Shown: in pieces, positions 4,134 to 51,076 of the stretch
Numbering within the stretch: the first letter of the stretch is position 1
How the letters are laid out: the number at the start of each line of letters is the position of its first letter
Assembly: GCF_025790165.1 (NCBI RefSeq)
Contig: NZ_CP094970.1
Span: forward strand, 434,001 to 498,000
Direction of reading: 5' to 3'
Source: Solicola gregarius
GTDB lineage: Bacteria > Actinomycetota > Actinomycetes > Propionibacteriales > Nocardioidaceae
Length of the DNA stretch: 64,000 nt
Position numbers and translations under genes: made by a program
The notes under the pieces: model-generated
The model's database searches: none
Told to the model about the DNA's origin: nothing
What the model saw: only the letters and a program-made list of their open reading frames with translations

Positions 4134-6440
4134 TCAACGCTCGGCACTCCGTCGCAGGATCTCGGGCCGCGCCCGGACGCGATCCCGCCGTCGTACGAGC
4201 AGAGCCGCGCCCGCGGTGACCAACAGCGTGGGTACGGCGACGACCGCGGCAACGCCACCGCGCGTGGAGACGTCGACGGCCGGGTCGAACGGGCCGGGCA
4301 GCGCAAGCACGAGTGCGTGCCGCGTGCACCACCACGTCACCAGGGCGATCGCCACTGCAGACAGGATCGAGGTGACCGAGAGGACACCGACCTCGTAACG
4401 CGCAGACGATGCGGCAACACTCATCGGAACGTGCGCCGAACGCAGCGCGGCGTCGTCGCGGCGCGTACGTGGGCGCGCGACCGACGCCGCGTGGATCGCA
4501 ACGGACACAGCGACGACGGCGACGACGGCCGCGAGCACACACCAGGCCAGCACGCTGCGACCGACGCCCGAATCGGCCAGCTCATCGCTGACGTGACCGG
4601 GCGTCAGCGGATGGCCGGTGTCGACACCGTGCCGGCCGAGTGCCGCCAACACCGACGCCGGTGTGTCGGAGCGCGCGAGCACGCGCACCCGCGATCCGGC
4701 CGGTTCGTCGTACGAGTCGAGCACGATGTCGGCCAGGTTGCCCAGGTAGCCGTGCGTGCCGATGAGCGGAAGGATCTCCGATCTCGCGACGACCTCGCTC
4801 GGGGCGACGGCCGGATCGAGGCCGCCCACACGATCAGGGATCCGCGTCGTACCGGCCGCGACGACCCGGCGAACAAGGTGCGCCGACGACGGCACGACTG
4901 CGGCCGCGTCGGTCAGGCCGTGTGCCGCGAGCTCGACCTCGAGCCCGGCTGACGTGCCCCGCACCCCGATCGGATGCCCGGCCGCCGCGGCCGTGGCGCG
5001 GTCGGGGCTCCAGGTACGGCCCGCGTCCGGCCCCCGGGCGCCGGCAACAGGCTTCCCGCCGACGGTCAGGTCCCGCACGACGAGCCGACCGGTCAGGTCG
5101 ACGGGCGCATCGGCCTGCGTCGCGAATTGCAGCTTCCGCAGCACACAACCGCCCGAGCATCCGCGTACACGCCCGTGTAGGTCGCCGCCGTGCTCGGGAA
5201 TCGGCATGCCCGCCGACACGATCTCCCCGTCGGGACGCAGCAGGCTCAGGTTGAGGTACGGGCGGTCGCCGGATGGCCATCGCAGGTCGCCGTCGATCGT
5301 GGCGTGCATCGTGCCGTCACCGACCACGACCGGGTTCCAGGTGTCCTCGCGAAACGCCCGCGCGACCGCGGTCGGTGCATCGTCCGAGCCGGCGTGCCAG
5401 GAGGTTCCGAGCACCCGTTCCCAGCGGGTCAGATCCGCGAAGCCGTTGTACGTCTCGGGGTCGATGTCCGTTGGCGATCCCTCGATCGTCATCAGCCACC
5501 TGCCGTCGGGGTCGGCGGCCCGCGTTGCCAGGAAGGTCGCCGTCGCCGTGTGCTCGCTGTCGTACGTGTCGACGCCGCCGGTCGCGATCGCCGCGACGTC
5601 GTCACGCCACTGTGCATCGGCCTGCCGGACCGTCAGCCCGAAAACCGCCATCGCCACCGCGCCCGCAACGGCCGCGAACGCCAACGCAAGCGTGCTCGTA
5701 CGCCGCAGCCGTCGCACCGCGAGATAGCGACCCATGTCGGCGGTCCGGGCGAAGACCCGGATGCCGATCGCACCGAGAGCCAGAGACAGCCATCCGCTCA
5801 CGATGACGGCGGCGAGCGCGGCTGCGAGCGGCGCGAGCGCGACGATCATCGGTGACTCCCCGAGCCCGGCGGACGCTGCGGTCACCAGCAACCATGCGCA
5901 TCCCACGAGCGCAATGCATTCGGCGGAGGCGCGCCACACCGGCGTACCCACGGAACCGTCCGAGAATGCCATCCGGCCCGCGAACCGGCAGCAAACCGCA
6001 ACCGTCGTTGCGCACACGACGCCCGCGCCGACGGCGCTCAGGGCGACGATCGCCGACGAGTCCGGCCGCTCGTGCCCGGCCGAGACGAGCAGCCGAATCG
6101 CCGCCGCGCCGACCACGAGACCTGCAATCGATCCCACCGTGACGACCAGAAGCGGTTCGGAGACGAGCCACCGCCACATCCGACCGCGGCCATAGCCCCG
6201 CACCGCCGCAAGGCGGATGTCGCTCGCCTGCTCGCGAAGTGATCCGCTCACGATCGAGGCGGTCGCCAAGCACCCGGCGATGCCGATCCCGAGGAGCGTC
6301 GCGACGGTCGCCGTACGGGCATCCCCGGCGGCGGGAAACGCAACGACGCATGACGTACCCGCAACCACGAACGCGCAGGTGAGCCCCAGGCTCAGCACGC
6401 GCGTGGGGGCCGCACGGACCGCGCGGAGCGTGCGGCTCAT
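4134..6440 (-). CDS. FtsX-like ABC transporter permease (768 aa)
   Basis: Second permease of the exporter, same architecture as its downstream neighbour: an N-terminal helix pair, an FtsX core with four helices near residues 45-290, a long extracytoplasmic domain from about 300 to 620, and three terminal helices. The ATG sits in an ATGA overlap with the stop of the ATPase gene, which fixes the start and implies coupled translation. The cytoplasmic loop reads LREQASDIRLAAVRGYG, the typical coupling loop of the FtsX fold. The pair probably forms a heterodimeric transmembrane core. Confidence 0.85.
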   Translation of the reverse strand: MSRTLRAVRAAPTRVLSLGLTCAFVVAGTSCVVAFPAAGDARTATVATLLGIGIAGCLATASIVSGSLREQASDIRLAAVRGYGRGRMWRWLVSEPLLVVTVGSIAGLVVGAAAIRLLVSAGHERPDSSAIVALSAVGAGVVCATTVAVCCRFAGRMAFSDGSVGTPVWRASAECIALVGCAWLLVTAASAGLGESPMIVALAPLAAALAAVIVSGWLSLALGAIGIRVFARTADMGRYLAVRRLRRTSTLALAFAAVAGAVAMAVFGLTVRQADAQWRDDVAAIATGGVDTYDSEHTATATFLATRAADPDGRWLMTIEGSPTDIDPETYNGFADLTRWERVLGTSWHAGSDDAPTAVARAFREDTWNPVVVGDGTMHATIDGDLRWPSGDRPYLNLSLLRPDGEIVSAGMPIPEHGGDLHGRVRGCSGGCVLRKLQFATQADAPVDLTGRLVVRDLTVGGKPVAGARGPDAGRTWSPDRATAAAAGHPIGVRGTSAGLEVELAAHGLTDAAAVVPSSAHLVRRVVAAGTTRIPDRVGGLDPAVAPSEVVARSEILPLIGTHGYLGNLADIVLDSYDEPAGSRVRVLARSDTPASVLAALGRHGVDTGHPLTPGHVSDELADSGVGRSVLAWCVLAAVVAVVAVSVAIHAASVARPRTRRDDAALRSAHVPMSVAASSARYEVGVLSVTSILSAVAIALVTWWCTRHALVLALPGPFDPAVDVSTRGGVAAVVAVPTLLVTAGAALLVRRRDRVRARPEILRRSAER

Positions 6441-48971: not shown

Positions 48972-49496
48972 CTACGCTCCGGCGACGGCGGGCGCGGTCG
49001 GGTCGTCCGCCTCGCCCGTCTCCTCACGGGCGACCCAGTCCTCGATCGCCTCGAGGTCGTCCTTGGAGCGGGTCACCACCGCGAGCAGGTCCGTCATCTT
49101 CGCGACCTCCTCGACCTGCTCCTTGATGAACCACTGCATGAACTGGTCGGACGCGAAGTCCTTCTCGTCACGCGCGATCGAGGTGAGCTCGTTGATCTGC
49201 TCGGTGACCCGCTTCTCCTGGTCGAGCGCGACCTGTACCGGCGCGACGACGTCGTCGTACCCGCTCGCCGGGGTCTCGACACCGGGAATCACGACGTCCT
49301 CGTCGGCGTCGAGGAGGTACTGCACCATCATCATCGCGTGGTCGCGCTCCTCGAGCGCCTGCTGGTAGAACAGCGCCGCCATCTGCGGCATCGTCAGTGC
49401 GTCGTAGTACGTTGCGATCGCGACGTACTGCTGGTGTGCGGCGAACTCGTGTCCGATCTGCTGCGTCAGCGCCGAGACGAACTTGGGGGCTGCCAT
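48972..49496 (-). CDS. ferritin (174 aa)
   Basis: Four-helix ferritin of the actinobacterial BfrB type without a haem Met motif. Ferroxidase residues visible are E17 (GHEFAAHQQY), E50 and H53 (ALEERDH), plus the Glu/Gln pair in IKEQVEEV. It oxidises and stores iron in a 24-mer. AAGGAG precedes the ATG, and an IdeR-type iron box lies upstream; in mycobacteria IdeR activates this gene class when iron is plentiful. Confidence 0.9.
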   Translation of the reverse strand: MAAPKFVSALTQQIGHEFAAHQQYVAIATYYDALTMPQMAALFYQQALEERDHAMMMVQYLLDADEDVVIPGVETPASGYDDVVAPVQVALDQEKRVTEQINELTSIARDEKDFASDQFMQWFIKEQVEEVAKMTDLLAVVTRSKDDLEAIEDWVAREETGEADDPTAPAVAGA

Positions 49497-49534
49497 GTCG
49501 TACTCCTTCGATAGCCTTGTGACGGAGGTAACCG

Positions 49535-49553
49535 TTAGGGATGCCTAACCTTA
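49535..49553. promoter_or_regulatory. IdeR/DtxR iron box
   Basis: TTAGGGATGCCTAACCTTA matches the 19-bp IdeR consensus at 14 positions. It lies in the 73-bp divergent region between ferritin and a small Cys-rich protein gene, and abuts the latter's -10. Confidence 0.75.
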
Positions 49554-49557
49554 TTGG

Positions 49558-49563
49558 TACGGT
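49558..49563 (+). promoter_or_regulatory. leaderless -10 of small Cys-rich gene
   Basis: TACGGT, then 6 nt, then GTG at 49570; 4 bp from the iron box. Confidence 0.5.
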
Positions 49564-49569
49564 GGGGTG

Positions 49570-49737
49570 GTGCCGGCGAAGCCCAAGAAGAAGTGCTGCA
49601 CCTCGAAGCCGAAATGCAAGCGGTGCCCGCTTCGCATGCTCTCCGAGGGAACGCTGCCCAAGGGCTATACCGTGAAGAAGCGAAAACTCGTCAAGGTCAA
49701 GGGTGGCAAGAAGAAGGCCAAGGTCCCCGCCGCCTGA
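49570..49737 (+). CDS. Cys-rich basic small protein (55 aa)
   Basis: Reads MPAKPKKKCCTSKPKCKRCP, then LRMLSEGTLPKGYTVKKRKL and a Lys-rich tail ending KVPAA. Four Cys in a CC-x6-C-x2-C pattern could bind Zn or Fe; overall very basic, suggesting nucleic-acid contact. It is too short to be called by default. The GTG start is set by the 6-nt spacing to TACGGT; GTG at 49567 is the alternative. Its promoter abuts the IdeR-type box that it shares with ferritin, so iron regulation is likely. I do not know its function. Confidence 0.72.
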   Translation: MPAKPKKKCCTSKPKCKRCPLRMLSEGTLPKGYTVKKRKLVKVKGGKKKAKVPAA

Positions 49738-49836: not shown

Positions 49837-50448
49837 CTATCCGTCGCCCTGATCCGGCCATCGCTCGCAGCGCCAGTCGTCCGCGTCGGCCAGAAGTTCC
49901 GCAACGGCACCGTTGGGGATCACGCGTCCGTGCGCATGGGCGTCCGGCAGGTTCGATACCAACCGCGGAAGCACCAGACCCATGACACCGCCGTGACTGA
50001 CGACCAGCACGGTCTCGCCGCGGTGCAGGTCGACTATCGACTCGAGCGCGCCACGCACCCGCGCGACAACCCGCTCTGCGGACTCGCCACCGTCGTACGT
50101 CGCGCTCAGATCGCCCGCGCCCCACGCCTCGAACGTCTCCCGGAACAGGCTCAGGTCTTCCGGCTGCCCTTCGTACGCACCGACCGTGAGCTCCTGCAGC
50201 CCCTCGCGGACGCGCACCCCGACGCCGAGAACGCCGGCGGCGATCTCCGCGCTCTGCACCGCGCGAGCAAGAGGACTGCAGTAGACGTACGCGATGCGGC
50301 GACCGCGTAGCGACGTACCGAGCTCGCGGGCCTGCTCACGACCGCGTAGCGACAGCGACCCGCCGGCATCGGTGAGGCGGTCGGTCTCGTACTCCGCCTC
50401 TCCGTGTCTCGCGATCAACAGGGTCGACGCACATTGCAGGTCGCTCAT
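49837..50448 (-). CDS. histidine phosphatase family protein (203 aa)
   Basis: Phosphoglycerate-mutase-like fold with the phosphohistidine motif ARHGEAE at residues 13-19, YCSPLARAVQSAEI near 55, and VVSHGGVMG near 150 with the second His. Substrate unknown. A CAGGAT box lies 6 nt before the ATG, consistent with a leaderless transcript. Confidence 0.82.
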   Translation of the reverse strand: MSDLQCASTLLIARHGEAEYETDRLTDAGGSLSLRGREQARELGTSLRGRRIAYVYCSPLARAVQSAEIAAGVLGVGVRVREGLQELTVGAYEGQPEDLSLFRETFEAWGAGDLSATYDGGESAERVVARVRGALESIVDLHRGETVLVVSHGGVMGLVLPRLVSNLPDAHAHGRVIPNGAVAELLADADDWRCERWPDQGDG

Positions 50449-50491
50449 GCTCCGATCCTGCCATTCGGCGCCGCGGGGAGTCTTGCGGACG

Positions 50492-50497
50492 TACGCT
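50492..50497 (+). promoter_or_regulatory. leaderless -10 of sigma factor gene
   Basis: TACGCT, then 6 nt, then GTG at 50504. Confidence 0.55.
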
Positions 50498-50503
50498 GCG
50501 AAG

Positions 50504-51076
50504 GTGGACGCCGACCCGCTGGTCGTCCGCCTCCGCACGGGGGACGAGGCGGCGTTCACAACGCTGGTTCGCCGTTACGAACGGCATCTCCTCGCTCACG
50601 CCGAGTTCCTTGTACGCAACCATGCGGTCGCCGAGGAGGTCGTGCAGGACACCTGGACGGCTGTGTACACAGGTATCCAGCGATTCGAGGGCAGGTCATC
50701 GCTGCTGACGTGGATCACCCGCATCCTGGTCAACCGGGCAGCGACCGCGCTCGGCCGCGAGCGACGCGCAACGCCCTTGGGCACCGACGAGCTCGACCGG
50801 CTCGCCCGACCCTCCGGCGTTGGCCACGAGTACACGGGCGCCGACGCCGTAGATGACCGGCTGACCGCGCAACAGGCGATGCGCACCGTCGTACGCGTGC
50901 TGCCGCAGCTACCCGACGCGCAACGCTCGGTGTGGACGTTGCACGACATCGAGCACGCCACCACCTCCGAGGTCGCGGCTCGACTCGGCGTCTCGGCGTC
51001 CAACCAACGCGTGCTCCTCCACCGTGCACGCACCAGGCTGCGCCGGCACCTCGGGCCGGAGCTGGGTCGTTGGTGA
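50504..51076 (+). CDS. ECF-type RNA polymerase sigma factor (190 aa)
   Basis: Sigma region 2 near residues 18-90 (LVRRYERHLLAHAEFLVRNHAVAEEVVQDTW ... WITRILVNRA) and region 4 near 130-180 (LPDAQRSVWTLHDIEHATTSEVAARLGVSASNQRVLLHRARTRLRRHL). No anti-sigma factor or zinc-finger protein is adjacent. A methyltransferase and a small barrel-like gene follow on the same strand, so they may be its targets or partners. Confidence 0.87.
   Translation: MDADPLVVRLRTGDEAAFTTLVRRYERHLLAHAEFLVRNHAVAEEVVQDTWTAVYTGIQRFEGRSSLLTWITRILVNRAATALGRERRATPLGTDELDRLARPSGVGHEYTGADAVDDRLTAQQAMRTVVRVLPQLPDAQRSVWTLHDIEHATTSEVAARLGVSASNQRVLLHRARTRLRRHLGPELGRW

Follow-up and report, generated by a model that had tools for sequence, protein, structure and literature searches.

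The window, that is, the whole 64,000-nucleotide stretch of Solicola gregarius DNA analysed here, contains two divergently oriented genes separated by a short intergenic region. A ferritin gene encoding 174 residues lies on the minus strand (48972–49496, ATG at 49496), and a gene of 55 codons on the plus strand (49570–49737), with a GTG start at 49570 and an alternative possible start at GTG 49567. The gap between the two starts is 73 bp (49497–49569), and the 19-bp box that had been placed within it is indeed found there, at 49535–49553. This predicted DtxR/IdeR operator has the sequence TTAGGGATGCCTAACCTTA and scores 15/19 against TTAGGTTAGSCTAACCTAA, which we take to be the DtxR/IdeR consensus. 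It is the sole stretch scoring at least 13/19 within the 64-kb window, and this uniqueness, together with its enrichment in homologous upstream regions over controls (see below), rules out a chance box. The box ends 16 nt before GTG 49570 and its center is 26 nt before that start. The predicted −10 hexamer of a leaderless transcript, TACGGT (plus strand, 49558–49563), is located 6 nt before the GTG, in agreement with the family-wide placement of a TAnnnT element; it was originally described as abutting the box, but the two are 4 bp apart and thus near rather than abutting. The DtxR/IdeR-type box covers this predicted core promoter of the small gene, which has a leaderless-type start.

The product of the small gene is, as first described, a very basic and Cys-rich protein of 55 residues. 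Taking the first residue as Met, it comprises 17 Lys, 3 Arg, one acidic residue and four Cys, with a computed pI of 10.5 and a charge of about +18. The cysteines occupy positions 9, 10, 16, and 19, so that the spacing initially given, CC-x6-C-x2-C, has to be corrected to CC-x5-C-x2-C (C-x6-C-x2-C when counted from the first Cys), followed by a proline. A genome scan yielded 39 loci with relatives of the gene, chiefly in Nocardioides, Aeromicrobium, and other Nocardioidaceae. The four cysteines are invariant among 27 aligned small-protein sequences, as are P5, K6, R18, P20, M23, G27, P30, G32, T34 to R38, L40, and V41. The dN/dS ratio has a median of 0.25, a 90th percentile of 0.44 and a maximum of 0.83, calculated from 39 sequences over 38 codons. 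These are the window's own sequence and those of all the 39 loci but one, which missed the pattern; dS was usable in 725 of 741 pairs. A chance open reading frame is ruled out by the 39 homologous loci, the median dN/dS and the invariant cysteines, and the leaderless −10 geometry also supports the assignment; by these comparative measures, the small gene is a conserved protein-coding gene under purifying selection.

Searches with the window protein against Pfam, NCBIfam, and the PDB sequences gave no significant match, and Pfam returned nothing at E up to 5, so PF04324 is absent from it. Two matches in distant cousins, one SHOCT-like (E 0.0017) and one to Mut7-C in another cousin (E 0.03), fell below the curated cut-offs and were taken as chance. 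The AlphaFold model of the protein is of moderate confidence (mean pLDDT 75.8, pTM 0.50); Foldseek gave six matches, none at E 0.001 or better, and VIA-align, across 7 chains, gave none with a Z of at least 2. In view of the moderate confidence of the model and the lack of a convincing structural match, no argument is made here from the fold. No plasmid-borne copy of the gene was found when looked for, nor was a description of the protein in print, including by peptide-fragment search, within a coverage that takes in little of the subscription literature.

The identity of the ferritin is borne out by its match to the Pfam Ferritin model (E 8e-35) and by its closest solved chain, BfrB (3qd8, E 2.8e-47), presumably from M. 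tuberculosis. It scores below the cut-offs of both the bfr model (20 bits; cut-off 125.55) and the non-haem ferritin model (53.3; cut-off 178), and it is the one PF00210 ferritin of this genome. From these matches, it is probably a haem-free ferritin of the BfrB type; BfrB is termed an Ftn in PMC7762939. The computed charge of each ferritin chain is −23, against about +18 for the small protein.

The arrangement of box and start was compared across the 100 distinct upstream regions that were left of 109 loci or window stretches once duplicates, loci lacking the Cys motif and a single spurious motif had been removed. Two main types, the window type and a type labeled Kribbella by inference, account for 84 of them. 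A box of at least 14/19 is present in 44 of 72 window-type, 12 of 12 Kribbella-type and 2 of the 16 remaining cousin upstreams; for the two main types this represents 56 of 84, compared with 0.1% of 10,000 shuffles and none of 4,850 stretches taken elsewhere in these loci. The other 28 fall below 14/19, and they include ferritin-linked loci without a good box (9/19 in L023, L029, and L088, for instance). Conversely, the box is still found at this level in 11 of 15 loci where the retrieved sequence, with at most 3 kb of flank, contains no ferritin. A TAnnnT element stands 5–8 nt ahead of an in-frame GTG or ATG in 82 of the 84 main-type upstreams, at 6 nt in 56 of them (3.7% in the shuffled control), which predicts a leaderless mRNA. 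Of the 63 upstreams with a box of at least 13/19, 45 have the box center 28–34 nt before the start, and 12 have it at 19 nt. One genome carries both forms, a Kribbella-type copy with a 15/19 box and a window-type copy without a good one (L128 and L129). Three genomes have the small gene and no ferritin match; two of these boxes reach only 11/19 (L075, L077), and the third keeps one of 13/19 (L171).

A loose DtxR pattern gave 47 strand matches in a scan of this genome, compared with 37 for the backward control, so the pattern by itself is weak. Thirteen box places beyond that of the window, picked for few mismatches or for symmetry, were read in their gene context, and nine of them precede iron genes. 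The box lies 0 to 33 nt before the start of five siderophore-type binding lipoproteins (PF01497), an imelysin, which we take to be EfeO-like, an FTR1 iron permease and a siderophore-interacting protein; for the ninth, a haem oxygenase, the distance is 11 or 77 nt, depending on the chosen start. The remaining four comprise two places with no gene (L003, L006), one with an unclear gene (L188) and one whose gene, 71 nt away, has no evident connection to iron (L187). The genome also encodes a DtxR-family repressor with Fe_dep_repress and Fe_dep_repr_C domains (G000:C1:1263903).

The position of the box bears on the sign of the control. As described for C. glutamicum in PMC1382209, boxes internal to the promoter belong to repressed genes, and boxes upstream of the −35 to the activated ftn and dps; PMC13001254 likewise has C. 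diphtheriae ftn activated from a DtxR site adjoining the −35. Since the box of the small gene lies inside the promoter, like those of the uptake genes here, repression by iron is the better prediction. In the tandem loci of Nocardioides, the small gene and the ferritin gene look co-transcribed from the DtxR-covered promoter, so that ferritin would share this repression; this would be odd for a storage protein and makes the sign of the control less certain. One tandem locus (L087) has a −10-like TAGGCT 6 nt before the ferritin ATG.

At E up to 0.01, a wider small-protein profile built from 13 rows has matches in 106 of the 196 genomes examined in the order. Of 396 genomes sampled across the phylum, 24 have a match, in six cases only with E above 0.0001. 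The position table omits three of the 106, whose matches all have E above 0.004, as well as weak second matches and a single second copy. Among 76 sampled genomes of the window's family, 60 have both genes, 3 the small gene only, 2 the ferritin only, and 11 neither (Fisher p 4.5e-9, kinship ignored). In 13 of the 60, the only ferritin is a distant one, about 30% identical (E 1e-12 to 1e-18), which is not adjacent to the small gene; when only close ferritins are counted (E below 1e-60), the numbers become 47, 16, 2, and 11, respectively (p 1.1e-4, again ignoring kinship). All four of the distant ferritins that were checked fit the Pfam Ferritin model at E 1.1e-31 or better, which counters the doubt that they are ferritins, and tblastn with the window ferritin had missed two of these four. 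In some Nocardioides with the small gene, this distant second kind of ferritin, encoded elsewhere, replaces the BfrB type (L172–L175; Pfam E 1e-31 to 3e-34).

Conservation beside ferritin in other genomes, proposed at the outset as a check, was found in the family: where a close ferritin is present, in 49 genomes, the two genes are adjacent in 47, 19 times divergent and 28 times in tandem with the small gene first. The kinship data place the divergent pairs in the window and one genus and the tandem pairs in two genera, so the arrangements represent few independent events. In ten tandem loci, the small-gene stop is separated by −1 to 52 nt from the codon aligned with ferritin residue 1, with a stop/start overlap, TGATG, in one of them; downstream of the small gene, no box-like stretch scores above 10/19. 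Elsewhere in the order, four more genomes with a close ferritin have no adjacent small gene; three lack it and one has it far off. In another class the divergent pair recurs twice (L144, L153) and a convergent pair once (L146). No ferritin was found within roughly 4 kb on either side of the 12 Kribbella-type loci. In one Kribbella-type locus (L122), the frame ahead of the small gene, 4403–5158, looks by eye like a metal-receptor-type binding protein.

A consistent location away from iron genes, which had been named as evidence to the contrary, is not what the window's family displays; it does describe more distant relatives from a second family within the class, mostly without a good box and without a nearby ferritin. 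Seven of these loci (L140–L143, L148, L150, L151) share the motif PKKKCC-x5-C-x2-CP but differ in the C-terminal half; their boxes score 9 to 13/19, and they have no ferritin close by. Two or more of them (L141 and L142 included) lie, as judged by eye, antisense to a gene that we take to resemble typA. The window also has, downstream of the small gene, a frame (49837–50559) whose RHGE motif we take to be histidine-phosphatase-like; a similar frame lies just upstream of the small gene in three Nocardioides loci that have no ferritin at this position (L016, L020, L040), which suggests that this neighborhood is older than the present position of ferritin. Judged from the gene and promoter data together, the small gene has a strong link to ferritin and to a DtxR-type box. 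The iron link originally proposed for its protein is strongly supported by the adjacency to ferritin, by a DtxR box that often persists at loci away from ferritin and by a box geometry like that of the iron-uptake genes read in this genome.

The genome has a single ferritin, which must still give up its iron, and a search for PF04324 in the whole genome at E up to 0.01 gave no match, thus no Bfd-type ferredoxin was detected. We therefore propose, at slightly less than even confidence, that the small protein is a dedicated ferritin partner, Fe-S or iron-binding, Bfd-like in role yet unrelated to Bfd. Iron-loaded DtxR would close the promoter, and the small protein would be made as iron drops. 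Its four cysteines would hold an Fe-S cluster, or iron; its strongly cationic body would dock onto the shell of ferritin, which is strongly anionic. The protein would hand electrons to the ferric core or pick up released Fe2+, doing for a haem-free ferritin what Bfd does for bacterioferritin. Among these modes of partnership, redox release is proposed first and the chaperone mode second. Several observations count against a partner role: the 13 genomes whose ferritin is distant and non-adjacent, the three with the small gene only and the two with ferritin only, the 28 low-scoring upstreams, the Kribbella-type loci without nearby ferritin and the promoter shared in tandem.

The comparison with Bfd is one of role. 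Both are very small proteins encoded beside a ferritin-family gene. The four Cys of Bfd, which carries a [2Fe-2S] cluster, are spaced C-x-C-x~32-C-x2-C, whereas those of the small protein are clustered, no sequence relation was found, and the partner here is a BfrB-type, probably haem-free ferritin, in an actinobacterial lineage and with a DtxR-type box. The small protein would work like Bfd at most and stands outside the Bfd family, its function being probably of the same kind. A Fer2_BFD match of some kind is found in 57 of the 76 family genomes, among the matches listed mostly inside long frames, which argues against the small protein simply replacing Bfd. PMC7762939 and PMC4771812 describe Bfd as passing electrons to bacterioferritin for iron release and as being expressed differently from bfr. 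Corynebacterial ftn resembles the present case in having a DtxR box upstream of a ferritin gene, and differs in the activation reported from boxes upstream of the −35; in the passages of PMC1382209 and PMC13001254 consulted, no Cys-rich partner encoded divergently or in tandem is mentioned there.

The Fe-S cluster is suggested by the likeness of C-x6-C-x2-C-P-L-R to the [4Fe-4S] loop of MutY and endonuclease III (Nth), C-x6-C-x2-C-x5-C. The small-protein segment CCTSKPKCKRCPLRMLS is identical at 8 of 14 residues to the loop CSATAPDCDRCPLRTHC of this genome's own MutY-like protein, which itself falls below the mutY cut-off. However, only three of the four loop cysteines are in phase; the fourth (C-x5-C) is absent, being Ser in the window protein and variable in the family. 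There is an extra Cys beside the first, the protein is much too short to hold a glycosylase domain, and matches of the small proteins to the mutY profile are insignificant (E 0.26 and 0.42).

An iron chaperone or loading factor co-made with ferritin, carrying Fe2+ to or from the shell with no redox work and with DtxR perhaps as its activator, would account for the tandem loci, in which the genes are separated by tiny gaps and the best box-like stretch between them reaches 10/19, and for the single box common to both genes in the divergent form. It would also agree with the DtxR activation of ftn described in PMC1382209 (C. glutamicum) and PMC13001254 (C. diphtheriae). We consider it doubtful, since the activated ftn boxes lie upstream of the −35 and those of the small gene inside the promoter, as at the uptake genes here, and the MutY-like spacing suggests a cluster over labile iron. 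The four cysteines fit a Zn site equally well, which counts against the Fe-S reading and, with the charge of +18 and the distant cousins found away from ferritin and mostly without a box, would suit a zinc-knuckle-type nucleic-acid-binding or ribosome-associated protein of iron starvation that is near ferritin through shared regulation only; this is unlikely, because co-occurrence and adjacency in several gene orders are hard to explain by co-regulation alone, and the window protein has no significant match to a known family or solved fold. A small sensor of iron or redox state acting on DtxR or on the expression of ferritin, for which the linked DtxR-type box and a metal binding possible in principle could be invoked, is very improbable, as no regulator domain was found in Pfam or NCBIfam and nothing specific favors it. 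Of the three roles initially suggested, metal sensor, iron donor and nucleic-acid-binding factor, the iron donor came nearest, a redox or iron-transfer partner fitting best, and the other two have no specific support.

Returning to the ferritin partner, iron return from haem-free bacterial ferritins is poorly understood; the 2016 review PMC4771812 finds ferritin iron release less well understood than uptake and states that a prokaryotic iron chaperone had yet to be reported. With a linked, probably iron-regulated partner of a BfrB-type ferritin, this question could be tested directly on just two small proteins in purified form. It is nearly an even prospect that the genes described here represent a previously undescribed family of DtxR-controlled, leaderless Cys4 mini-proteins that serve as dedicated Fe-S reductants or iron chaperones of haem-free actinobacterial ferritins, the role of Bfd having been invented independently. 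The second match of the genome to the mutY model (L185), endonuclease-III-like by eye, has a cluster loop, RRCCHARKPACGACPVARWC, that also starts with CC, shifted by one position relative to the CC of the small protein.
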